Source: Nitrospira sp. CR1.1 (GTDB lineage Bacteria > Nitrospirota > Nitrospiria > Nitrospirales > Nitrospiraceae). Taken from it: a DNA stretch of 64,000 nt. Shown here piece by piece: positions 33,122 through 48,941 of this stretch. A program made the position numbers and the translations under genes. Location of the stretch: positions 372,001 through 436,000 of the forward strand of contig WIAF01000002.1 of the NCBI GenBank assembly GCA_014055465.1. Reading direction: 5' to 3'. The notes beneath the pieces were generated by a model. It saw only the letters and a program-made list of their open reading frames with translations. It was not told the origin of the DNA and did no database searches. Position 1 is the first letter of the stretch, and every line of letters starts with the position of its first letter.

Positions 33122-33123
33122 CC

Positions 33124-33145
33124 AGGTGGCCCTTCCGCGGCACCT
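33124..33145. terminator. Possible weak terminator after the copper-oxidase operon
   Basis: AGGTGGCC and GGCACCT pair with one bulge around a 7-nt loop, between the end of the cytochrome/binding-protein gene and the rpsF promoter. No T-run follows. Confidence 0.3.
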
Positions 33146-33188
33146 TAAGATCAGCCGTTCCACAGACCAATTTCCCGAGATGGAAGGA

Positions 33189-34808
33189 TCATGGGGTATC
33201 TTCCGGCACGATCCAATCCGTCAACGGCGAAATATAGGGGGGATCTTTGAGCAGACCGACTACTTTTGACGCCACACGTCCCAGTCGGCGCTGTACCCCG
33301 AATGTCACAGCAAACCCTGCCCCGGTGTCCTGATCGCGAAAGGCCTCCAGGGCCTCAATGACTGCATGGCGACTGAGGTCCCTACCCGCCTGCTTCAGGG
33401 ACTCAGCCAGCATCGACACAGCGCCGTGGGCCATGCGGGCAAACCCCACACTCGATAACGCGGGCTGCTCACTCAAGGCCCGCAAATATATCATCTCACG
33501 CTCCGTAGGCGGATCAAGCGGGGTCACGAGAAATATCCGCGAAAGAAGGTCCGATGGGACGGCATGAGCCTGTGCGCCGACCATGCCGGCCGCACTCAAC
33601 AACACCGGCGACATTCCCCGGCGGCCTAGCTCATTTGCCATGGAGACAAGATCTTCTCCGTCTCCCATGAACAAGACGGCATCGATTCCCTGCTGTTCCA
33701 ATTGCGCAACAAGAGCCACCACGGCCAGACGGCCTGACGAATATTCGTAACTCACCGCCAGATTCAATCCATGATGCCGAATCTGCGCCAGGGCCCCACG
33801 CACAGCCTCACTACTACTGACTCCGCTCCTGTGCACGAGAGCCAGACGGGGCTGGGAACTTCCCGCGAGGGCCCTCATGCGGGACGCAAAAAAATCCACT
33901 AACGATCGAAATTGAAGATCGAACCCGGGCAAGGCATAGAAAACGGAAGGGTGGGGCGGATCTGAGAGCTCAAGAGACTGGCTCAAAGGAAAAATCAGAG
34001 GTATCTGGAGCCGCTCCATTCGTCCACGGACGGGTGCCTCTCTCGTCGGCTCGAAGCTCCCCACGAGGGCAAAGACTTGGTGCCTCTCGATCAGGCGAGA
34101 GACGGCCTGCGCCGTCTGCGCAGGCTCTCCCCGGGAATCTTCCACAATGAGTTCAATTTGCCGTCCGTATACGCCGCCGTGCTCGTTCAGGCGCCGCATA
34201 GTTCCCCGCATCGTCGCGGCTACATCCCGGCCTAACTGTGCGAGCGGCCCCGTCAAAGGGAGCGCCGCTCCGATCAGCACAACATCGGGGCTTACCCCGG
34301 GATCCGTATCGGATTCCTCTCCAATCCGGTTCAGATATGCGATCACGGCCGCCAATTGGCTGGATGTCAATTGATACCGCGGCATACTTGGGCGTAACGC
34401 ATGGCCCGACGGATCAATGCCTCGCGTGATCGCCTTAGCCAGCGCCTCGTCCGTGTATCCGACCCGAGACCGTCCGGTACTGCTTACTTCTCGGAGCTGC
34501 CTGAGGGCCGAGGGCGTGAGTGGAGGCACCCGCAGCCCTCCCTCTTGTGTTCCTTCCCCGCGATGACCATGACATCCCGCGCATCGAAAAAGAGTCGGCA
34601 GGACACCTCCCTCGACTCCCTGCAAGTTCACGTGAACATGGTCCGCGGAGCCGTTCTCACCATAGTGATACAAGTCACGCCCCTGCCGCTCCTCCGGCGT
34701 AAGCGGATCAATCCATGCGGCGGTGGAAGGCCGTACCATACAAAACGTCATCATGAGCAGGCTTAGGATGACGCACGTCCCGCTCACCCGGAGAAATCGA
34801 TGAGCCAT
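33189..34808 (-). CDS. Cytochrome c fused to a periplasmic ligand-binding domain
   Basis: 539 residues from the ATG at 34808. A signal peptide (1-31) is followed by a small cytochrome c with one heme site C76-A-G-C79-H80 and a likely distal Met in RPSMPRYQ. From about residue 170 to the end it is a type I periplasmic binding domain of the branched-chain-amino-acid (LivJ-like) class: GAALPLTGPLAQLGRD, NEHGGVYGRQIELIVEDS, ALVGSF, VLLSAAG, GFARMAHGAVSML. No ABC permease or ATPase gene is near, so it is unlikely to serve transport. A redox-linked sensor or delivery role in the periplasm is more likely (inference). It is the last gene of the multicopper-oxidase operon, 11 bp after the SCO1 gene. 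Confidence 0.85.
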   Translation of the reverse strand: MAHRFLRVSGTCVILSLLMMTFCMVRPSTAAWIDPLTPEERQGRDLYHYGENGSADHVHVNLQGVEGGVLPTLFRCAGCHGHRGEGTQEGGLRVPPLTPSALRQLREVSSTGRSRVGYTDEALAKAITRGIDPSGHALRPSMPRYQLTSSQLAAVIAYLNRIGEESDTDPGVSPDVVLIGAALPLTGPLAQLGRDVAATMRGTMRRLNEHGGVYGRQIELIVEDSRGEPAQTAQAVSRLIERHQVFALVGSFEPTREAPVRGRMERLQIPLIFPLSQSLELSDPPHPSVFYALPGFDLQFRSLVDFFASRMRALAGSSQPRLALVHRSGVSSSEAVRGALAQIRHHGLNLAVSYEYSSGRLAVVALVAQLEQQGIDAVLFMGDGEDLVSMANELGRRGMSPVLLSAAGMVGAQAHAVPSDLLSRIFLVTPLDPPTEREMIYLRALSEQPALSSVGFARMAHGAVSMLAESLKQAGRDLSRHAVIEALEAFRDQDTGAGFAVTFGVQRRLGRVASKVVGLLKDPPYISPLTDWIVPEDTP

Positions 34809-34819
34809 GTTGCAATAAC

Positions 34820-35401
34820 CTATTGACGTCCGCCAGAGGGAGCGGAATCCGGCAGGCCGGCTATGGCCTCGAGGCTCTCCAGCACCATCGGAACCGATGC
34901 TTCCCCGTAAAGACGTGTCCATGTCCCAGTCGCTTCATTCCCGATGACCACGATCGCCGGATGGTCCGCCTTGTTCGATGTGGAGACCTGCAGGGATGCC
35001 AAAATGCGGGCGACATCCGCCGGTGCACCGGTGAGAAAGTGCCATCCCTTCCCAGCGCCAAATTGCGCGGCATAGGCTTTGAGCCGGGACGGCCGGTCGT
35101 GTACAGGATCGACGGTGACAGACAGCAAGGTCACCGGCTGTTCCGCCGCTCGCAGGCGATGATACACACCACTGAGCAGCCCGGTTGCCGCAGGACAACT
35201 GGTCTTGCAGGTCGTGTAGATAAAATTGATGACTACGATTCTCCCCTGCACCAAATCCCCATAGAAGCGGTAAGAGAGGCCGTCTTGGTCAATCACCTCA
35301 ACATCAGGGATGGCGGGCAGGGTGACATCGGACCAGGCCAGCGCCGCATACGCGCTACACAACCACAAGATCATTGTGGCTGCAACGATCCGGGACATCA
35401 T
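34820..35401 (-). CDS. SCO1/SenC family copper chaperone
   Basis: 193 residues with a signal peptide (1-22; LWLCSAYAALAWS) and a thioredoxin fold. The copper-binding CxxxC is present (TTCKTSC, in the FIYTTC context) as is the conserved His (KADHPAIVV). SCO proteins insert or redox-prepare copper in CuA and other copper sites. It lies between the propeller gene and the cytochrome fusion of the oxidase operon, so its client is probably the giant multicopper oxidase rather than a terminal oxidase; no cox genes are near. The start is the first of two adjacent ATGs, 13 bp after the preceding stop. Confidence 0.9.
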   Translation of the reverse strand: MMSRIVAATMILWLCSAYAALAWSDVTLPAIPDVEVIDQDGLSYRFYGDLVQGRIVVINFIYTTCKTSCPAATGLLSGVYHRLRAAEQPVTLLSVTVDPVHDRPSRLKAYAAQFGAGKGWHFLTGAPADVARILASLQVSTSNKADHPAIVVIGNEATGTWTRLYGEASVPMVLESLEAIAGLPDSAPSGGRQ

Positions 35402-35414
35402 CGAATGGACACGC

Positions 35415-37391
35415 TCATGGCTGTTGAGCCTGCTCAGGAGATTTCGAGGGAGGAGACGCCGGCGGCCCGACGGTGAGCAGGGCAGGGAGACTGTCAGAAA
35501 AGCGCACGTGCCGGGATGACGACTGCACGAGCACCCGATATGCTCCCGCATGCGGAAAGGCCTGGGTGATCACGTAACGCCCGGCGCGTTCTTCTTTGGC
35601 CCACCGCCGCTGTTGCCAGGTACCGGGCGGCTCGAAGAGCAACACCTGCACATCGTGAAGCCCAGTGATCGGTTCCTGAGTATCGGCATCCAGCAAGTCA
35701 AACCACAAGGCGGCTGAAACGTGCGCCGACACGGGATCGCTCCCAAACCGCACCTGAATGCGTACCGGTCGAGGGCGCGGGTCCGCCGTCGGGGACACCG
35801 CCGACTCCTGAACGGCCACCTGGAAACAGTGCGACACGCGAGGCTGGTCGAGCAGCACGGGAACGTCAAATCGACCGGAATGCGGAAGGGTCACGGTTGC
35901 TTGGTAGACGCCGGGGGCCACTTCTTTCAAACTTCGATCGAGTACGAGTATGCCACGCGGCATTCGACGATAATTCGAGAAGGTTCCCGTCGGAGCCATC
36001 ATGCCTTCCTGATAATAATGGAGCGTCGCATCCGGCGCATTGGCAATCATGACGGCATTGCCTTCAGGTGTGGGAACGATCATGGGAGCGACTCCCAGTT
36101 CCTGCGGCGCAGCACTCGGCGCTTGCCGTCCGGCTTGCACATCGAGCGGTACTAATTTCCCATTCCTGGCCTCGCCTAGATCAATGAGCGTAAACTTTTC
36201 CGACTCGATGCCACGTACATAGGCATACCGCTGGGTGAACACGATTTGATCCGGATCTTTGACCACGTTCGTGGCGGCCGTTACGGTATTGGTGGCAGTA
36301 TCGATGATGGACAGGCTGCTTGCAACTTGATTGACCGCGAAGATAAACCGGCCTTTCGGCTCTGCGGCCAACGCGACGACGCCCTGCGCCATGGGAATCC
36401 GGGCAACGATTCGCTGCGTCGATGGATCAATCGCTACAGCCTCCCCGCCATTCACTCCTCCGGCGTACATGCGCCGGGCGGCACTACTGTAGGTCAATGT
36501 TACGGGTGTTTTGCCGACCGGCACCGACGCCACAGGCGCCATGATCTGCGTATCGATCACCGACACCGTGTCGCTGTGGCTATTCGTCACATACATGAAT
36601 CGACCGTCAGGAACAGCGGCCAATGTATGGAGACCTTGCCCTACCGCCATGGACGTGAGGAGCCTGGGATTCTCTCCGTCGAGTACTGCCACCTGACCCG
36701 TTCCGTCCAGCCCGACCCAGAGCCGGCGGCTTTCTGGCTGCCAGAGGATTCGTCCCGGACGTGATCCCTCACCAATAGCAATGATCTCGATGAGCTTGCG
36801 AGTTCGGGTTTCGATCACTGCCACAACGTCCTTGTCCGGAATGGTCACATAGAGGTGATTCTGATCCGGACTGAGGACCCAATCCGCGCCGATGCCAGGC
36901 AACGTCACGAGACTTTCCAGCTTCGTCGCACTAAACTCCAACTGGGGGTCGATCACCGAAACCGTCTTGTCGTGATTCATCGTCACAATCACATATCGAT
37001 TCAAGTCGATCTCGGCACGGGCACCCAAGCGTCTGCCGGCCAGCCGACGGATCTTCTCGAAGCAGGTGACTTCATCAGCCGCCATCTCGGAACGCCGACC
37101 CGTCATCCACCCCTTCGGACGTATCCCGACCACCGGAGACCCGCTTTTCGCATCCATCAGTGCGACCTTCACCGTGGCTGGTTGGCCGGCGGTCAATCCT
37201 CTCCCGATTTCCGGTGAGCCGTTCAACGGAACAACCGTCAACTCAATCGCGAGACCGTTCTGTTCGAACCGTTGCACATCAGGCGGCGGCTGAATTTCTG
37301 CGGCGTCAGCCACCACCGAGGCTGTCATGAGCAACACCCCCGGGATATTTCGCATAGCCGCAGCCACGAGGGTGTGAATGGCTCCTCTCAT
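35415..37391 (-). CDS. Secreted YVTN-type beta-propeller protein
   Basis: 658 residues. Signal peptide about 1-31 (core AAAMRNIPGVLLMTASVVADA). Residues about 140-440 contain repeated YncE/YVTN propeller blades, for example FMYVTNSHSDTVSVIDT, RLWVGLDGTGQVAVLD and FIFAVNQVASSLSIIDT. An N-terminal beta domain precedes them, and the last ~200 residues form two Ig-like or cupredoxin-like beta segments ending in a Pro/Ser tail. No CXXCH site is present, so this is not a heme-d1 nitrite reductase. Start 37391 overlaps the giant oxidase stop by 4 nt (ATGA), giving tight coupling and near-equal synthesis. A scaffold or substrate-binding partner of the oxidase is plausible (inference). Confidence 0.75.
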   Translation of the reverse strand: MRGAIHTLVAAAMRNIPGVLLMTASVVADAAEIQPPPDVQRFEQNGLAIELTVVPLNGSPEIGRGLTAGQPATVKVALMDAKSGSPVVGIRPKGWMTGRRSEMAADEVTCFEKIRRLAGRRLGARAEIDLNRYVIVTMNHDKTVSVIDPQLEFSATKLESLVTLPGIGADWVLSPDQNHLYVTIPDKDVVAVIETRTRKLIEIIAIGEGSRPGRILWQPESRRLWVGLDGTGQVAVLDGENPRLLTSMAVGQGLHTLAAVPDGRFMYVTNSHSDTVSVIDTQIMAPVASVPVGKTPVTLTYSSAARRMYAGGVNGGEAVAIDPSTQRIVARIPMAQGVVALAAEPKGRFIFAVNQVASSLSIIDTATNTVTAATNVVKDPDQIVFTQRYAYVRGIESEKFTLIDLGEARNGKLVPLDVQAGRQAPSAAPQELGVAPMIVPTPEGNAVMIANAPDATLHYYQEGMMAPTGTFSNYRRMPRGILVLDRSLKEVAPGVYQATVTLPHSGRFDVPVLLDQPRVSHCFQVAVQESAVSPTADPRPRPVRIQVRFGSDPVSAHVSAALWFDLLDADTQEPITGLHDVQVLLFEPPGTWQQRRWAKEERAGRYVITQAFPHAGAYRVLVQSSSRHVRFSDSLPALLTVGPPASPPSKSPEQAQQP

Positions 37392-40300
37392 GGCTGCATA
37401 ACCGGCGCATCGTTCGACGTCTGAACCCTGCAAAGATCAGACGACGCCACTGTGTTGGTCTCATACCCGAAGAGATTTCCGGCCCAAGCCCAAGCCGGTT
37501 GATACCAGCGCAATCCGAGATTCTCCTCAACCCGGAAAATCCCCCATAATCCGCCGCCGAACATGAACCCTTCTTGCGTGCGGTAGAGATAGTCGCCCGA
37601 AACTTTACAGTCCCCGCCGGCCGTTGTCAGAATGTTCACGTCGCGGCCCGGCCCAATTCCTCCGGCCGATCCGACTCGCGTCAGACCATCTTGATTCCAT
37701 CCCATGGTTTTGGACGCATCGATCCATGGACTCGGCACCCAATCATGGCCGAACACCGTGAACGCATGTTGTCGTGGATGGCCTCCCGGATGCACCACCC
37801 GAAACCGCACCGGCTCTCCGGCCTTCGCGGTAAAGATCGGCGTTTCGGGGTCACAATATTTCTTGTTCGCAAAATCCGCCTCGCAGCGGAAGTGCGGCAC
37901 CGTTGAGCTCAAGACATTCGACCAATCGAACTGATTCATCGTCTCCGGATTATCGGCTGCACCGGCCCCTAATCGGGCCCAGAGCGGCTCTGTGCGATAG
38001 TTAAATCCCTTCTGCCCGGAGTCTTCGGAGTCATCCCCATTCCGAAGATTGGGAATGGGCTGGCCGTACTGCTGGACGCTCAGGTTGTCTTGATACAGCA
38101 GCACCATTTCTTTGAATCGATACAGCTTTCCAGAGTCCAGCTTGGGCTCAGTGGGACAGATCTGTTGTTTGAGATGCCTCCCCTGCCGGCCTGATGCCGA
38201 TTCCGGCTTCCAATAGGTCACCACCGCCTCGGCGGTACCCGTCGACGGCACAGTCTCCCAGTGCGAGCATTGCGGCTCGATGAGTAAGGCGCCAATCGCC
38301 CCATGCGACGCATGTTTGATGGCATCTCCCATATCCTGCAAGCCAATGGCCCCAAACTCATGCGGGATGCCGACAATGCGAGTTCCTTTCTTGTTGGTCA
38401 CGATGTCGCCGGCGTACCAGAGGTAGGTCTTGCTGGCGCCCGGCTCGACGGTGGAGTCATCATTGAGTCCCACGTGCGCTCCGTCGCTCTTCAGCAGGTT
38501 ATAGTCCACCAGCTGCGGATGTAATCCGACCCGGCTCGACGAACGTACCTGATTAAACGAGAAGCCCGGGACGACCGGTGGCACCATGTTGTAACTCCAG
38601 GTCTCCGGATGGTCTGGGCCATCCTGCATGACTGCAGGGAGATGATTGGTCAGGGTGACACGGATACAGTCCCCCGCCCGAGCGCGGAGAATGAGCGGCT
38701 CCGGCCGCTTACTCCCTGATCGCAACATGGCCTTCTCGCCGGACTCCACGAAAATAATTGCATGGGGATCCGCAATACCGAAATGTTCGTTGTAGACCAG
38801 CTTTCCGCCTGGCAACAGGTCCTTCGCCAGCCACGCTTCCACCTCGTACGAGCGGGACAGCAAGTCCTGACCGCCCTTCTGACAAAACGCCTCCAGCGCG
38901 TCGCTCGGAGCGGCGTTCGTTCCCGCCTCATCGCCGGCGGCATCGTCCGAGGCGTCCAGCAATTCGCGATCCAACAGCTCATCCAGGTTCTGCATGAACG
39001 CGGACGCCAGAACATCGTGCGTTTTCTCCGTATTGCCCGGCAAGCGAACAAGGCCCTGTTCATCCTCCGTACGGGAATAGACACGCATCAGTCCCCACTG
39101 ACCATCCCACAGATTGTCCGTCGCGGCCGATGAGTAAAGATGGTCGATTGATTTGTGCTTCCCCACTCCGCCGAACGATTTGTTTCCGTTGCTTCGGCCG
39201 AATGGCATAAAGTCGACCACGCGATCGTTGAATTCGAAATGCTCGGAAATCCCGATGGACTGGGCGTTCACGTAGCCTGTGTTCGGACTGTCCGGCTGGG
39301 CCAGCCATTTGGCTCCATGCATGGTGAATACATGTTGTTCCTCCTGGGCGCCCTGAATCAGCCGAATCTGGACATGATCGCCTTCATAAGCACGCAGGAG
39401 CGGTGTCGCCGGATCACCTGGCATACGTCCGTTACCGATGGGCTCGGTAAACAGACGCTCGTCTACGCTTTTTTGGTCTTTGTGAACGGTTGAACTGAAC
39501 ACATGCGCCAGATCGCCGCGCTCCTGATCGAGGGGCAACTGCTTGAACTGATTTCCGTCTGTGTCCTGCGTCCCGATGCGCAGCGGGATCGGTTCGTTCC
39601 TATAATTGATCAATTGCGTACCGGGATCTTTCGTCGAAATGCCTTCCGGTACTGGAATACGGCCTGGGAGAATAGGCGTCCGTAACCCGCCTTCGATCTG
39701 ACTCGGTGAGTTCACCGGTTGATTCTCCTTGTCGTAGACAATCGCAAAATCCGCAAAGGCCAGATTGAATTCCCGGCCGGTCCGATCGGCATCGACACTG
39801 CCCCTGGAATCGAGCGCGTCACTGCAGGCGATCCCGTTCTTACCTGGAGTAATACAGGCCTTGCCTTGATTCCGAACAATCACGTTCGCGGCGTACGAGG
39901 TCGGACCGCCGTCCTTGCGCCCATTCACCGGTTCAGGAACACCCGTAGCATCGGTTCCTCCCATCACTCGTCCATCCGGGAAATACCATTTCGAATTTCT
40001 CGGTTCGACGACCAGCGCGGCATAAAACCCGTGATGCTGGTGTGAACTGGGACCGAAATGGTCGTGCGTGAACACGGTGCGCATCGTGCGATCTTTGGTG
40101 CCTTTGTCGCCCGGCTTTCCGTTCAGCACCGGATCAGCCCACCACCGTTGCGTCGTGGTCTGCGCTCCACACCAAGGATGACCGATCGGATCGTGATCAT
40201 CAGCCTCTTTTCCGGTAATATCGCTGCACAGACCGCGGGCATCCCCTGCCATGGCGCCGTTCTCCGTTGCGCCAAGTTGCCCCTTGCGAAGAAAGAGCCG

Positions 40301-43300
40301 GTGGGTACGAGGCTTGAGCCGCTGCGCAGGACTTGTCTTGTTGTAGGCCTGAATTCGCTCCCGCACTTCATCGGCGGCCAAGGTGCCATCTTCATAATTC
40401 CATCCATTGCCCGATCCATCCGATGATGTGACGTCGAACTTCACGAGATGAATGTGCTGGCCGATCGTATCGGTCGGCGTATAGACCTGAAAATCATCCA
40501 GGTTGAGATTGCTCGGGATCAGATTCGTTGCGTGAAAGACCACGCATTCCCCTGACTGTGCTCGGAAGAAGAGCGGTTCGGTGGGACGATTGCCGTCCAA
40601 AGTTTCTTTGACATCGTGCTCCAAGACCGGGAAACGGGCTTGCGGATCATGCCAGCCCGATTTATTCACCGTCATATTCATTTGGATATAGACGGCACGG
40701 TACTCACGGGTCTTCACCTCATGAATCGAACCTTTCTCATCGACAAATTGCCTGGGACAGGGGTTTGAAAACGGAGCGCCGGATTCACCCTCTCCGCGTT
40801 TGGCCTCAATGACATTTCCGCCTCCGTTCACATGAAACAACACCCGTGTCCCGTGTGGATCGTCGCAGACACCGCTAGAAAGACAGGTCACATATCCAGG
40901 CGCCTCCCAGTTATAGGGAGTGTAGGTCCAACCCGGATCGCCAGGGCGAACTGCAGGAGCGCCGTTTACCTGAGCCATCCCGGCATGAAATTTCATCGCC
41001 TGTTTTTCCTCTGTCGTGCCGGCGGTCGCCATCACATCCAATTTCGCTGTAACCAATTCACGCGCCAACCCAACCAAATCCTTGTCGGTATTCTGCGTAG
41101 ATACCCGCGCGGCAATATGTGCCGACTGCTGTCGTCCCTTATCAAACAAGTCATCGTTCATGGGAGGAGCTTGTTTCATCTCCTTCGGCCCATGCGCGTC
41201 CAGGGCATCACGAACCGTGCCGCCCGCCACCACGTGACGACGGAGGGTACCGGCATCGTCCCCGCCTTCCAGATCGAGTGGCGGTTGCGGCGGCCGATGG
41301 CCGATTTCTCCGGCGATATAAAACGGATATCCCTGGAACTGCTTCGTGGGCATAGGAGGCAGCGCTGTCCTCGGTAACGGCACAATCGCCGGCGTGGGTG
41401 TACCCTCGGCAATGTCGTAATCCTTCAAACGGCGGTCTGGTCCGCCGTCTTCAAACACATCGTGGGTCCGCCAGAGCTCCCACATGCCTTGAGCGAAGTG
41501 AGGGTAGAGATGGCAGTGGAAAATGGAATCGCCCGGTCCGAGATTCCGGTTACCTGACCCGCCATAATGCACTTCGTACGAAAAGGTCGTGCCCGGGGAT
41601 ATCGTCTGTGAATCGAGATAATGAGACAGAGGGTCGTGTTTATCCTCCAGCCATTGGTGAGCGTGCAAATGGAACACATGGGTCTCCTTGGGGCCCGCGT
41701 GCATGTTTCGGAAACGCACCGGATCGCCAAGATAGGAATGATGGACATTGGACGGATCATCAGGATATCGCGCCTGCATGACAAACCGTCCGTCGCGGTC
41801 CTTCTTGTACCTCCCGTCTTTGTCCCGCTCGTACCCGACCACCATCGCCGGATCGCCATTGACCCAGGAGGTGAGGAAAAACTCTTCGAGTTTGCATTCC
41901 ACACAATCTCGCGCCGGCCCGAGCTTGTTCCGATTGGCCACGACCATGGATCCTACACCGGAGGCGCCATAGTTGATCCCCATGCCGTCGCGAAGCGAAC
42001 TCAGCGGACTACCTTCTTCTCTGATTTCATCGAAGGCCTGTACGGCGGTGATCTCATCATGAAAAATCACACTAAACTCCCGATACGGTCGACCGCAGGC
42101 ATTCCCTTCGCCCATTTTTTCGCAGCCGTTTTCCCGATCGATATCGATCACCGCATTCAGATCCGAATGGACGAGCTCGCATAGGCGGTTGTCTTGGGAC
42201 TGACACTTGAGCATGTTCAGGATCGGGTCGCCCGCATGCGGCCCACTTTTGTAGGCCGCCTCATAGTCGATGACCGGCTGACTGAATCGTGTCGGCTGCG
42301 TATGACTTGCGGCCTTCAAGTCTTCATGGGTCACCTGCGAGCGATACCACTTCGCACCTCTGGGCTGCACATTGATCGCCCCGAAGAGTCCTAACCCGAG
42401 CTGCCCGCCGTCTCCCTCTCCTCCGGCGGGCGCTCCCATGGAATAGAGGAAAAATGTCCCTTCCTTTTTGGCGTACCACGTGTACGTTCTGGTTTCACCG
42501 GGTGCCGCCAGGGCACAGAGATCTTTACCAAAATCGCTTCGGTTCGATGAACATCGGCCCTCGATCTTCTTCCCGCTTTGATCGTGCCATCCATTCCGGC
42601 CGATATTCGCCCCCTGTGAGTCGATGGACTCCACCAGACTCAATCCGTTGACATGCATGGAAGCATGCCGGGTAGACGGTTCGTCGCTATCACTGACGGA
42701 TGTCACTCGCGTATCCGGCCGGGTAAGCCGCTTTTCTGGGTCAAGCATGACTTCCTGGCCGTTCGTGTCCGGGGAAAGCAGGTTGGTGAAGGTGACTCGC
42801 AGGCAATCTCCTTCATTGGCCCGGAGCACCAGCGGACGAGGCCGCTTATCGGACCGCAATTTGACATTCCCGGCCAAACCGAGATCCGCAGGCCCATGCT
42901 GAGGAGAGATCGCTGTTTCTTTTTCGTCAGGCCAGTTATCCAGATCACCATTGAGCAGTTCCTTTTCGTCCGTTTGAACGACATCCCGCCGCAGTGCGTA
43001 CATGATGCCGGCCGGATTAAATGCACCGAACCGGTTGTAGTAATACACCTGGTCCAAGGCCACGACCTTGGCGGTGATGGTCCGTTCGCAGGCCGGCTTG
43101 ACCACCTGCTGGGATTCCGGCAGTTTCGGCTTGGCGCAGCCCCACCAGATGAGAGACAGGCTGAGAATCGCTACGGCGTTAGCTACCGCTCTGATTCGTG
43201 ACACATTCGGCTTCTGGCTGGGGCGAGCGACGAGAACTTCTCTGGGAGGCGTGTCTGCCTTTAATTGAGTGGGCACGGGAACGAATTCATCATCTCGCAT
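37388..43300 (-). CDS. Giant multicopper oxidase, permuted copper motifs
   Basis: 1970 residues, several times the length of a laccase. A hydrophobic anchor (38-53) ends in WWGC55, a possible but atypical lipobox; a membrane anchor is the alternative. Many cupredoxin domains follow. A full set of catalytic motifs is visible: site 3 THVFHLHAHQW (H541, H544, H546, H548), site 4 HCHLYPHFAQGM (H595, C596, H597, H601, M606), site 1 HIH (H949, H951), site 2 HDH (H1079, H1081) with HQHH after it. Order 3-4-1-2 differs from the classical 1-2-3-4. The last third (about 1300-1970) has degenerate cupredoxins. Very large multicopper oxidases are known as Mn(II) oxidases (MnxG, MofA); whether this one oxidises Mn, Fe, Cu or organics is unknown. 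GGAGA lies 8 nt before the ATG. Confidence 0.88.
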   Translation of the reverse strand: MRDDEFVPVPTQLKADTPPREVLVARPSQKPNVSRIRAVANAVAILSLSLIWWGCAKPKLPESQQVVKPACERTITAKVVALDQVYYYNRFGAFNPAGIMYALRRDVVQTDEKELLNGDLDNWPDEKETAISPQHGPADLGLAGNVKLRSDKRPRPLVLRANEGDCLRVTFTNLLSPDTNGQEVMLDPEKRLTRPDTRVTSVSDSDEPSTRHASMHVNGLSLVESIDSQGANIGRNGWHDQSGKKIEGRCSSNRSDFGKDLCALAAPGETRTYTWYAKKEGTFFLYSMGAPAGGEGDGGQLGLGLFGAINVQPRGAKWYRSQVTHEDLKAASHTQPTRFSQPVIDYEAAYKSGPHAGDPILNMLKCQSQDNRLCELVHSDLNAVIDIDRENGCEKMGEGNACGRPYREFSVIFHDEITAVQAFDEIREEGSPLSSLRDGMGINYGASGVGSMVVANRNKLGPARDCVECKLEEFFLTSWVNGDPAMVVGYERDKDGRYKKDRDGRFVMQARYPDDPSNVHHSYLGDPVRFRNMHAGPKETHVFHLHAHQWLEDKHDPLSHYLDSQTISPGTTFSYEVHYGGSGNRNLGPGDSIFHCHLYPHFAQGMWELWRTHDVFEDGGPDRRLKDYDIAEGTPTPAIVPLPRTALPPMPTKQFQGYPFYIAGEIGHRPPQPPLDLEGGDDAGTLRRHVVAGGTVRDALDAHGPKEMKQAPPMNDDLFDKGRQQSAHIAARVSTQNTDKDLVGLARELVTAKLDVMATAGTTEEKQAMKFHAGMAQVNGAPAVRPGDPGWTYTPYNWEAPGYVTCLSSGVCDDPHGTRVLFHVNGGGNVIEAKRGEGESGAPFSNPCPRQFVDEKGSIHEVKTREYRAVYIQMNMTVNKSGWHDPQARFPVLEHDVKETLDGNRPTEPLFFRAQSGECVVFHATNLIPSNLNLDDFQVYTPTDTIGQHIHLVKFDVTSSDGSGNGWNYEDGTLAADEVRERIQAYNKTSPAQRLKPRTHRLFLRKGQLGATENGAMAGDARGLCSDITGKEADDHDPIGHPWCGAQTTTQRWWADPVLNGKPGDKGTKDRTMRTVFTHDHFGPSSHQHHGFYAALVVEPRNSKWYFPDGRVMGGTDATGVPEPVNGRKDGGPTSYAANVIVRNQGKACITPGKNGIACSDALDSRGSVDADRTGREFNLAFADFAIVYDKENQPVNSPSQIEGGLRTPILPGRIPVPEGISTKDPGTQLINYRNEPIPLRIGTQDTDGNQFKQLPLDQERGDLAHVFSSTVHKDQKSVDERLFTEPIGNGRMPGDPATPLLRAYEGDHVQIRLIQGAQEEQHVFTMHGAKWLAQPDSPNTGYVNAQSIGISEHFEFNDRVVDFMPFGRSNGNKSFGGVGKHKSIDHLYSSAATDNLWDGQWGLMRVYSRTEDEQGLVRLPGNTEKTHDVLASAFMQNLDELLDRELLDASDDAAGDEAGTNAAPSDALEAFCQKGGQDLLSRSYEVEAWLAKDLLPGGKLVYNEHFGIADPHAIIFVESGEKAMLRSGSKRPEPLILRARAGDCIRVTLTNHLPAVMQDGPDHPETWSYNMVPPVVPGFSFNQVRSSSRVGLHPQLVDYNLLKSDGAHVGLNDDSTVEPGASKTYLWYAGDIVTNKKGTRIVGIPHEFGAIGLQDMGDAIKHASHGAIGALLIEPQCSHWETVPSTGTAEAVVTYWKPESASGRQGRHLKQQICPTEPKLDSGKLYRFKEMVLLYQDNLSVQQYGQPIPNLRNGDDSEDSGQKGFNYRTEPLWARLGAGAADNPETMNQFDWSNVLSSTVPHFRCEADFANKKYCDPETPIFTAKAGEPVRFRVVHPGGHPRQHAFTVFGHDWVPSPWIDASKTMGWNQDGLTRVGSAGGIGPGRDVNILTTAGGDCKVSGDYLYRTQEGFMFGGGLWGIFRVEENLGLRWYQPAWAWAGNLFGYETNTVASSDLCRVQTSNDAPVMQP

Positions 43301-43340
43301 GGTCTAGGTCTCCACTGGCCTCATTGTTGAGGATCACACA

Positions 43341-44897
43341 CTATTGCGTGCAGGAAAACGTCGGCGTTGCGACTCCCGGCCAAGGGGTCAGGCGGGGAAT
43401 ATTGGGCAACCCGCTGTCCGGCAGCGCCCACCCGTTCGCGAGGAAGGCCAAACATTGAAAATTCAGCGCGGGCTGAGCGCCCCCTTGCACGCCTGTTGGT
43501 TCCGGGAAAATATACTCCCCGACCGGGGCGACATAGATGCCGGCTATCAGCCCATGAGCGGCTTTGGGTACGCTCGGCACATTGCTGCCGTCCGGTAACG
43601 GCGTAGGATCGTCAATGCGCACCATCAGCTCGCGCGTAGCTCCTTTCAAATTTCCGTTGAAATCGAAGAGCGCAGCGGCCGTCAATGGTGGGACGTAGCG
43701 GAACCGTCCAAAGACGGCTTGGTCTTTTTCCGTGCTATGCAGCAACCGCACCCTGGGGACCCCGCCTGGCGCGACGTCCACAGCATAGACGCTGACGCGA
43801 CGGCTTGGATCCGTCGTGAAGCCTTCGACTTTCAAGCGGTCCTGGCATTCGGCAGCCGCGCCGCAATCCGCGACCGGCCCCCTCGTTCCAAGCAGGGATT
43901 CCTCCAGGCTGACATAGGCACGTCCACCGGGTTTGGTATAGATGCCGACATTCACCACCAACGTATGCACCGATACAAAATCCGCTCCCTGTGCATCACG
44001 AGCCCTCGTGCCCGAGAAGGTAATGTAGTCGCCGACTCTCACCGGCGCCTGCCTATTCGCATCACACAGCGGGCAGGCCTTAATCGCGTTATTTCCAAAT
44101 TTAATCGGCGGCACGAGATCGACGGAGTCCATGACGAAGGTGAGCTCCACCGGTCGATTTTGACTGGGACATTGCGCATCGTTCACCAAGCGCGGCACGC
44201 ACATCGGGAAACCGGTCAGCGCATGCACCGTGGGATTGCCCTGGTCGACTGTAAAACGCGGATCCGGGTAGCGAGAGTTCGGATCATCCATACCAACTGG
44301 TGGCGGCGCCGGATTCGGCTTGCCGTACCGTCCGTCTCCCGCAAAAGGGTCCGAGGCATCCAATGCGGGATCATTCAGACGAATACGCGTATCACCGCCG
44401 CCACACGCCACTGCTGTCGAACTTCCCCCCACACACATCATGCCGGTCGCGGTATCGATGTGATGGATGAAGCCAGCGCCGGTATTCAACGATTGCTGTG
44501 AGATGCTGACTAGCCCGGCAATATAGAGGCCATTCACAATATTCCCGCTCACATCGGCCTCAAATGCCGCCAGTGGAGGAAACTTATCGCTCAGTGCGAG
44601 CCCGGATTCTCCATACTTTTTTGAGACGCCCTGCGCCTTATCGAACAGCTGTTGCGCAGTGAAATAGGCCGCCGGCAATTGGATCACGAGATTCTTCGGC
44701 AGCACCACATCCACACCATTCACGGTAAGCTTGGCACCGGATAGAGGATCTGCTGGGTTATCAAGCGTGAAGCGTTGAATGTGTCCAACGATCTGAAACG
44801 GGGTCACGGCCTGCGAGAGCGCGTCGCTTGGCTGGGTCATTCCGGCTAAGACAAGTACACCTATCATCCATAGGGTGACAGTGGACAGTACACGCAT
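43341..44897 (-). CDS. Cys-rich secreted protein of the oxidase operon
   Basis: 518 residues with a signal peptide (1-29; core LWMIGVLVLAGM) and GGAGGA six bases before the ATG. The mature protein has about a dozen cysteines, in pairs such as CPLC, CGAAAEC and CVGGSSTAVAC, and beta-rich segments with Asp/Asn/Gly-rich loops (DASDPFAGDGRYG). No family is recognised and no CXXCH is present. It is the first gene of the operon, 40 bp before the giant oxidase, and so is probably its secreted partner, a substrate-binding or matrix protein. That role rests on position only. Confidence 0.75.
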   Translation of the reverse strand: MRVLSTVTLWMIGVLVLAGMTQPSDALSQAVTPFQIVGHIQRFTLDNPADPLSGAKLTVNGVDVVLPKNLVIQLPAAYFTAQQLFDKAQGVSKKYGESGLALSDKFPPLAAFEADVSGNIVNGLYIAGLVSISQQSLNTGAGFIHHIDTATGMMCVGGSSTAVACGGGDTRIRLNDPALDASDPFAGDGRYGKPNPAPPPVGMDDPNSRYPDPRFTVDQGNPTVHALTGFPMCVPRLVNDAQCPSQNRPVELTFVMDSVDLVPPIKFGNNAIKACPLCDANRQAPVRVGDYITFSGTRARDAQGADFVSVHTLVVNVGIYTKPGGRAYVSLEESLLGTRGPVADCGAAAECQDRLKVEGFTTDPSRRVSVYAVDVAPGGVPRVRLLHSTEKDQAVFGRFRYVPPLTAAALFDFNGNLKGATRELMVRIDDPTPLPDGSNVPSVPKAAHGLIAGIYVAPVGEYIFPEPTGVQGGAQPALNFQCLAFLANGWALPDSGLPNIPRLTPWPGVATPTFSCTQ

Positions 44898-45463
44898 CGA
44901 GAATCCTCCTCCTGGAAACAGACGGCACTTAGCTCAATGATCACATGACATCGAGGCCCGGGAAACAGCAATCCGCACGAACAATGCACGCAGAGGATCA
45001 CCACCTAGTCCGCCTTCTTCATGAGCCCTTCTGCTGTACTCGCCGATTCACTGCTGCGACGGGCCTTCGGCCGGCGGGCTAGTCTTATCTAGGCCGGGCA
45101 CGAGATACCAGATTGCACAATACTTGCCAAGCCATTTTCCGTCAGTCGGACGAAAAAATACCGAGGCAAATATTACGTGGACTGAGCGTGCCCCTCATCA
45201 GAGCCATGGAACTGCGAGTTACACGTATGCACCAATGATCTGACTGGCGCGTCGCTTCCGCGTTCGTCATGGTGAATGTGGATGACTTCGGACGAGACCC
45301 AGAGGATGCACAAGGCCGCTTGAGGGTGGGAACCGTATCTTATCGATTTGGATACAAGGCAGTATTGGTATGGATACAGAAAGGATTGACTCGGCGTGTC
45401 TCTTGCCAGACAGCGCGTCCTTCTTTGGGCGACTGACTCTCGTCGAACGTAACGTCAGGGCTC
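44898..45463 (-). other. Upstream region of the copper-oxidase operon
   Basis: 566 bp without a convincing gene. It contains the sigma-54-like site at 45113-45130 and, just upstream of that on the minus strand, a short dyad (TCCG-N5-CGGA near 45140) that could bind an activator. A 55-codon plus-strand frame at 45269-45436 was seen but has no good ribosome site. Confidence 0.45.
45113..45130 (-). promoter_or_regulatory. Sigma-54-like promoter of the copper-oxidase operon
   Basis: The minus strand reads TTGGCAAGTATTGTGCAA: GG and GC are separated by exactly 10 bp and the -24 element TGGCA and -12 element TGCA are close to consensus. It lies about 215 nt before the first gene, leaving a long leader. 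Confidence 0.5.
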
Positions 45464-47349: not shown

Positions 47350-48555
47350 TTAGTCCCGGAGAAGGTGCTTCGTCTCCTCCAGATGTTTGTTGAGATAGGG
47401 CATGAACGGCGTTCCGCCTGTGCCTACGGAGGTCGGATTACTCGCATGCGACTGGTGCTGACGGAAGATATAGCGCTCGGCGTACCCGACATGAATGTCG
47501 CGGAACTGGGCTAGCAAGTCTACGCAGGCGCAGAACGACTCCCATAATTGGGGATTGGTCGCCTTGCGATCGCGGACATACCCATACAGCAATGGCCGCT
47601 GTTGGCCGTCCATGCGCGCCTCAAGCGCGGAGACAAAGGCTCGATGGCGCGGCGGCATGTAGTCACGCATTTCGACCAGGTATTGCGTCAATGGATCGTC
47701 GGCATGGCGCACACCAAGTCCCGCATCCAACGCTGGTACAATCGAACTTTGCGAGCCGGTTTCCCCCCGGAATTGTTGCGGGCGGTCAGCATAGTCCGTC
47801 ACCCCTTCGTACATCAGTCCCTGTGGCAATGCCGGACTGTTTTTCCACCCATGGATATAGGGTCGCACCCGGCTGTAATAGATGTAGGGGTCGCACCGTT
47901 CCGGCATGCGAAGGAGCGTCTCACGCATCGCCTCTTGCGCAACGGCAAGCGCATGCAACCCGGCCAGCACGGTCTCCGCCTCATCGTCCCGCGCGGCATT
48001 GTGGGCTTGAACCAAGCCCTGCAGTCCTGACCCGGCTTTCGCTTCGATCTCGATGTGGATCAACACAAACCATTCTTCATCGAGCCCGCCGAGGAAATTC
48101 TGCAGGAGCACGATATTACCCAACTCGATCGGCTTCTGCAGATCAAGCCGCCGCCAGTTGTGCAGCGCATAGGAGGCGTACGAAAGGACCGGCGGACGGC
48201 CCAGCTGTTGCGCAATGCGGCACCAAGGCAAGGCGATGCTGGCCGGCAACCTGGCCGCCGGAGAGTCGGGATTTTCCCAGACATAGGCATGCCCGGCAAA
48301 TGACAGCGTCCGCATGGCGGAACGGAACACATCGAGCCCCCAATCGTCCGCCACCGCGCCCATGAGCTGCTGATGGTCCTGGACGAAAGATCGAAACTGT
48401 CGCGCCGTCAGGAATTTCGGAAGCTCCGCGCCGACCTGATTCAAGATCGGCTCATCCGGCAGCTGCGCCAACGGATCGGCCGCCGGAAGGAACCCGCGGT
48501 CAGGGGAAAGGTCAAACTGCGCAAGCGAGAGAGGCTGGTGGCTGGACGTCAGCAT
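47350..48555 (-). CDS. Indoleamine 2,3-dioxygenase
   Basis: 401 residues of the heme-dependent IDO family, which opens the indole ring of tryptophan to N-formylkynurenine. Family signs: GGLDEEWFVLIHIEIEA, RDYMPPRHRAFV, the probable proximal heme His in FRDIHVGYAERYIF, and the C-terminal GTGGTPFMPYLNKH loop that closes over the substrate. No signal peptide. GGAAGAG just before the ATG at 48555 fixes the start. No kynurenine-pathway genes (kynB, kynU, NAD synthesis) are near, so the purpose of this solitary enzyme is not clear from context. Substrates other than tryptophan are possible. Confidence 0.88.
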   Translation of the reverse strand: MLTSSHQPLSLAQFDLSPDRGFLPAADPLAQLPDEPILNQVGAELPKFLTARQFRSFVQDHQQLMGAVADDWGLDVFRSAMRTLSFAGHAYVWENPDSPAARLPASIALPWCRIAQQLGRPPVLSYASYALHNWRRLDLQKPIELGNIVLLQNFLGGLDEEWFVLIHIEIEAKAGSGLQGLVQAHNAARDDEAETVLAGLHALAVAQEAMRETLLRMPERCDPYIYYSRVRPYIHGWKNSPALPQGLMYEGVTDYADRPQQFRGETGSQSSIVPALDAGLGVRHADDPLTQYLVEMRDYMPPRHRAFVSALEARMDGQQRPLLYGYVRDRKATNPQLWESFCACVDLLAQFRDIHVGYAERYIFRQHQSHASNPTSVGTGGTPFMPYLNKHLEETKHLLRD

Positions 48556-48941
48556 GGTCTCTTCCGTGGGTCGATGTTGCAACTATTTTTACTGTATCAC
48601 AGTCTTCCCACTCACTGCCGGAACCATTCCTACGGTTGCCTCGTGAACGTCCCGCACAGGTTACGAGAAACGTCCGTCCATTCTTCCTCACCCAAACGGT
48701 GGAGACAAAATCACTCTCCACGGTAATGGCACACTCCTTGTCCCACTCGTACAATCACTCCGTCCCAGGCAGACCTTCCAGAAGAGATCTCTACCATGGT
48801 CGCCCGGTCCGCTTCAGAAGCCAGATCGCCGCCGTTTCCATTCGCACGGGGACGCACTGCTCACCCTTGGCGAGCCGGTGAACATGGCCGCTGAGATCAA
48901 GCGGTTCTCATCGGCTCGCACGCTCCGAAAGGAGTACCGCC
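48556..48941. other. Divergent intergenic region, IDO / secreted orphan
   Basis: 386 bp between two divergent genes. A near-match to a sigma-54 promoter (TGGCAC-N5-TTGT, 48727-48741, the -12 GC changed to GT) faces the secreted orphan. No clear sigma-70 promoter or ORF was found. Confidence 0.35.

Follow-up and report, generated by a model that had tools for sequence, protein, structure and literature searches.

Among the described systems closest to the locus presented here, the operon of Pseudomonas putida GB-1 comprises mnxG, a YVTN propeller gene, two consecutive SCO1 genes, a gene for an ABC substrate-binding protein with a cytochrome c domain and a SurA gene, in this order (PMC11409713 Table 4; PMC8218464). 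The mofABC genes of Leptothrix discophora comprise a giant multicopper oxidase and a cytochrome c protein, and Rubrivivax A210 also has a metallochaperone (PMC8218464). MnxG has also been reported in Nitrospira MAGs from rapid sand filters that remove manganese; Nitrospira are abundant in drinking-water filters removing manganese, and whether they oxidize it is posed as a question (PMC12070406).

The window (the whole stretch of 64,000 nt analyzed in this work) corresponds to positions 372001–436000 of its contig, in a host genome of 4.44 Mb that is 99.99% complete. A search of this genome for amoA gave no match, a result to be read together with the control genomes, which gave none either. 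Five open reading frames are found on the minus strand between positions 33189 and 44897, with gaps of 40, -4, 13, and 11 nt, the gap of -4 (oxidase/propeller junction) being an ATGA overlap. The features of the locus are as follows:

43341–44897, minus strand: CYSR, first gene of the operon, secreted protein of 518 aa with 10 Cys (open reading frame)
37388–43300, minus strand: MnxG-family giant multicopper oxidase of 1970 aa, probably a lipoprotein (NF041487, PDB 9BXA, copper ligands)
35415–37391, minus strand: secreted YVTN/YncE-like beta-propeller with a C-terminal YtkA-like domain, 658 aa (domain search; adjoins MnxG in most loci)
34820–35401, minus strand: SCO1/SenC copper chaperone with a CxxxC motif, 193 aa (PF02630, E 2.3e-19)
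33189–34808, minus strand: c-type cytochrome (CAGCH) fused to a Leu/Ile/Val-binding-type periplasmic binding protein, 539 aa (PF13458, E 7e-39; PF00034, E 1e-6)
44898–45460, minus strand: upstream intergenic stretch inserted along with the operon, presumed promoter region (alignment to empty sites)
33123–45460, strand not applicable: 12.3-kb insertion lying between rpsF and a small secreted gene, by comparison with six genomes of the same genus in which the site is empty

The initial annotation had described five genes in a single orientation with these same gaps, which the coordinates of the reading frames bear out, and domain searches agree with the parts it had named, i.e., giant oxidase, YVTN propeller (YVTN repeats plus C-terminal YtkA), SCO1 (SCO1-SenC), and cytochrome/binding-protein fusion (Cytochrom_C plus Peripla_BP_6). 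Export-type N-terminal sequences were seen in all five proteins, in line with the export signals it had assigned to each. The first protein had been called Cys-rich and secreted; its N-terminus is indeed of the secreted type, and with 10 Cys in 518 aa the other half of the label is generous.

The giant reading frame belongs to the MnxG-family multicopper oxidases. Its sole NCBIfam match is the MnxG model NF041487 (900.5 bits, E 1.9e-270, in four stretches), below the curated equivalog cut-off of 3100, which was passed by none of the 296 Nitrospirota genomes. Its only strong relative in the PDB is the MnxG of entry 9BXA (E 6.1e-112), which from its size and name we take to be that of Bacillus. 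The four multicopper oxidase motifs (HxxHxH, HCHxxxHxxxxM, HxH, and HxH) are complete, appear in the MnxG order, align with their counterparts in 9BXA and are invariant across an alignment of 18 homologues, the copper ligands being H541, H544, and H546; H595, C596, H597, H601, and M606; H949 and H951; and H1079 and H1081 (protein numbering). The hydrophobic N-terminal stretch ends in WWGC-A, a probable lipobox of non-canonical form, and in the oxidases of the Nitrospira branch it ends in Gly-Cys or Ala-Cys (Ser-Cys in genome G091), which suggests a lipoprotein. The window MnxG is thus probably lipid-anchored, judging from these residues; this Cys is missing from several alphaproteobacterial members. 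Other contigs of the same genome carry three more giant secreted multicopper oxidases of 1621–1645 aa (L062:6707-11644, L063:7093-11958, L064:6638-11530), which share only 22–24% identity with the window MnxG along part of their length, and similar genes for oxidases of ~1600 aa were found in nearly every member of the class searched, often two per genome.

A tree of 99 MnxG sequences places the window protein within a clade of 23 members (support 100) whose sequences come from Nitrospira, Nitrosomonas, Rhizobiales, roseobacters, and Burkholderiales, separate from the P. putida-like and the Leptothrix MofA-like branches. To our knowledge, no member of this clade has been tested biochemically. 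Among the best 80 loci retrieved by the contig scan, those with a name that are nearest to the operon come from Nitrospira MAGs and from one MAG (NOB2) filed as Nitrosospira; none of these 80 is from Pseudomonas, and P. putida was compared by way of the NF041487 model and published tables. MnxG relatives were also detected on plasmids of Roseomonas, Indioceanicola, Sphingobium, Paracoccus, and others (matches H1-H14), a possible vehicle for transfer, and tandem duplicated MnxG-like genes appear in Methylobacter luteus and Sorangium cellulosum So0157-2 (L120:7427-18436, L125:10025-19103).

The propeller, SCO1, and cytochrome/binding-protein genes lie directly downstream of the oxidase, in the order of the mnxG operon. 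An order of MnxG, propeller, two SCO genes, and cytochrome/binding protein is found in loci L042, L043, L045, L101, L107, L121, L138, and others, and, with one or two SCO genes, it extends to Acidobacteriota, Myxococcota, Bacteroidota (Aquimarina, Kordia), alpha- and gammaproteobacteria, Planctomycetota, Nitrospirota, and one Bacillota MAG, with partial sets in MAGs of Chloroflexota and Thermodesulfobacteriota. At the window locus, the second SCO1 and the SurA gene of the P. putida arrangement are absent, the next gene downstream being rpsF, and a search of the host genome with the SCO1 protein as query gave no second match. The partner genes are co-inherited with MnxG: their protein distances correlate with those of the oxidase (Pearson 0.92 for CYSR, 0.86 for the cytochrome/binding protein, 0.78 for the propeller, and 0.65 for SCO), and none of 200 permutations gave values as high as those observed. 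All five genes are under purifying selection, CYSR about as strongly as the oxidase, with dN/dS values against the two closest relatives of 0.06 for CYSR, 0.07–0.09 for the oxidase, and 0.13–0.22 for the other three. A chance gene cluster is ruled out, since full-length homologues elsewhere keep the gene order and this purifying selection acts on every gene, which puts the cluster far beyond chance. The genes had been proposed to form a self-contained periplasmic or surface oxidation machine, with a lack of co-occurrence in related genomes counting against it; synteny is strong across phyla and co-occurrence was found in many of them, which, together with the co-inheritance, supports a single conserved module for secreted oxidation, made up of oxidase, copper insertion, ligand-binding cytochrome, and propeller. 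The designation as a candidate undescribed system is not supported, since the oxidase is of the MnxG family and three co-inherited partners have their counterparts in the published mnxG operon of P. putida GB-1, i.e., this is a known system in which, as far as we have found, only CYSR is undescribed.

CYSR itself has no sequence match in Pfam, NCBIfam, or PDB, and we found no earlier description of it in open-licence PMC text. Full-length CYSR is present in 10 of the 296 Nitrospirota genomes, all of which also have a full-length MnxG-like gene (present in ~21 of the 296), a co-occurrence with a hypergeometric P of ~3e-13 that overstates independence because the species are related. It adjoins MnxG in all 10 of these genomes and in 20 of the 23 clade members; of the three remaining loci, one is a contig of 4.6 kb (L096), one ends inside the oxidase (L083), and in the other no CYSR was seen (L055). 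Beyond this clade, CYSR-like sequence is limited to distant stretches, in particular in large MnxG-adjoining proteins of planctomycetes and one related MAG. CYSR is a component specific to one MnxG branch. Other Nitrospirota carry CYSR-like N-terminal stretches (112–145 bits) in proteins of 820–1076 aa (L161, L162, L163, L164, L165, and L166), with Ig-type repeats in both of the two tested, in clusters that variously contain secreted multicopper oxidases, SCO1, and MauG-type dihaem proteins, so that secreted copper/haem oxidases seem to have CYSR as a recurring partner. Its position varies: CYSR opens the operon in the window's Nitrospira branch and closes it in the one shared with Rhizobiales. 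The version with CYSR last has an extra gene of ~200 aa between MnxG and propeller (L056:13441-14049, L061:9849-10487), absent from the window version.

A first fold model of CYSR, built from 10 sequences, was too poor to be used (pLDDT 44.6). A second one reached pLDDT 67; Foldseek gave nothing with it at E<=0.001, and its structural matches, OB-like and Ig-like, had Z<=6.3, so no fold family is claimed here. The model weakly suggests two OB-like barrels followed by an Ig-like C-terminal domain. A bolder reading, which we regard as rather doubtful, would make CYSR an obligate and previously unrecognized subunit of a distinct Mn-oxidase branch transferred among nitrifiers, rhizobia, and roseobacters, and conferring a property missing from other MnxG enzymes. 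If so, this property could be cell-surface docking, mineral handling, or the wiring of Mn-derived electrons to cytochrome c, the last of which would lead to energy conservation in a nitrifier.

In six genomes of the same genus the site is empty and reads pth, an indoleamine-dioxygenase-like gene, an outer-membrane barrel, (in most) a small gene, rpsF, and ssb. Homology of the window to these sites breaks at 45461 and restarts at 33122, the 12.3-kb insert replacing a spacer of 115–122 bp. The flanking indoleamine 2,3-dioxygenase-like gene (window 47350-48582, PF01231, E 7e-87) was found beside the site in all same-genus genomes examined. One other genome (G171) carries this operon at the rpsF site as well, and another (G210) has there the operon of the other sub-branch, with an MnxG 44% identical and CYSR last. 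Together with the at least four separate MnxG lineages that the tree reveals within the Nitrospira family, this points to repeated gain, or to exchange through shared flanks. The Mn-oxidation system of Pseudomonas is RpoN-dependent; in the upstream region of the window operon, the sigma-54 promoter pattern was not above chance, sigma-70 sites and terminators appeared at chance level only, and no Mn riboswitch or other known RNA (Rfam) was found in the window.

Altogether, sequence comparison indicates that this is probably an mnxG-type, horizontally spread, secreted Mn(II) oxidase operon of a Nitrospiraceae bacterium. In established multicopper oxidase chemistry, the type 1 copper accepts the electrons of the substrate and the trinuclear site uses them to reduce O2 to water, which makes a terminal oxidase gene unnecessary. 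MnxG would be exported, probably remaining lipid-anchored, and would be loaded with copper by the SCO1-like chaperone. Its type 1 copper would take single electrons in turn from Mn(II) and Mn(III), with Mn(II) as the presumed substrate, its trinuclear center would reduce O2 to water, and Mn oxides would form outside the cytoplasm. Dedicated partner roles, structural or in the handling of electrons and ligands, may fall to the propeller, the cytochrome/binding-protein fusion, and CYSR, possibly in a complex with the oxidase.

The substrate is the point at which a different reading deserves attention. Multicopper oxidases are promiscuous, so a substrate other than manganese is possible, and a caveat of this kind has been raised for those of nitrifiers (PMC11995701). 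The enzyme would then be a giant MnxG-superfamily oxidase acting mainly on Fe(II), Cu(I), organic ligands, or phenolics, in metal detoxification or ligand processing, with Mn oxidation absent or incidental. The missed equivalog cut-off and a clade apart from the P. putida-like and MofA-like branches are consistent with it, as is the amino-acid/amide-type binding domain of the cytochrome partner, which could take an organic ligand. However, the characterized proteins closest in sequence are Mn oxidases, the partner genes match those of the Mn operon, and we judge this alternative unlikely, if worth keeping in mind.

The cytochrome also bears on an energy-conserving version of Mn oxidation, in which electrons would pass from Mn to the cytochrome/binding-protein fusion, the periplasmic cytochrome pool, and the respiratory chain. 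The family of the host is chemolithotrophic, the operon has retained a c-type cytochrome domain that is inherited together with MnxG (Pearson 0.86), and lithotrophy through a multicopper oxidase would need a carrier such as cytochrome c (PMC9040806). Yet the oxidase retains a complete O2-reducing trinuclear site, so that an acceptor is not needed, and the same genes occur in heterotrophs (Rhizobium, Aquimarina) and in Pseudomonas, which makes this route improbable. As for the possibility that the operon is a recent acquisition that drifts and is decayed or without function, the patchy spread of full-length MnxG among Nitrospirota and the sister species with an empty site would be compatible with it, but five intact frames and dN/dS values of 0.06–0.22 against the two closest relatives contradict it, and we give it almost no credence. 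In the preferred reading as a Mn(II) oxidase, a complete, selected, and horizontally exchanged mnxG operon, cleanly missing at the same site in sister genomes, provides a direct genetic marker for the question of Mn oxidation by Nitrospira.

Compared with the known systems, the window shares MnxG, propeller, SCO1/SenC, and cytochrome c/substrate-binding protein, in the same order, with P. putida GB-1 and also with strains OF001, MS-1, and DSV-1 (PMC11409713, PMC8218464). It differs from P. putida in that CYSR precedes the oxidase, a single SCO1 is present where P. putida has two, SurA is missing, the oxidase scores under the equivalog cut-off, and no mnxS/mnxR regulators are seen beside the operon. 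With the Mnx complex of marine Bacillus (9BXA) it shares a homologous multicopper oxidase core with the same order of copper motifs, although the window oxidase is far larger (1970 versus 1227 aa) and none of the five genes is as small as one for the small MnxE/F-type subunits of that complex. The MnxG-like gene of L. discophora (L109) adjoins propeller, SCO, and cytochrome/binding-protein genes like that of the window, but belongs to another branch of the tree, with divergently transcribed partners and without CYSR. The sand-filter Nitrospira MAGs have the same enzyme family in the same bacterial group, and their account, in its accessible part, names the oxidase only, without operon partners, CYSR, or insertion site (PMC12070406). 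MnxG in Nitrospira and the core mnxG operon were, thus, already known, and what is new, as far as we have found, is the clade-restricted CYSR, a partner that offers an unstudied component to work on.
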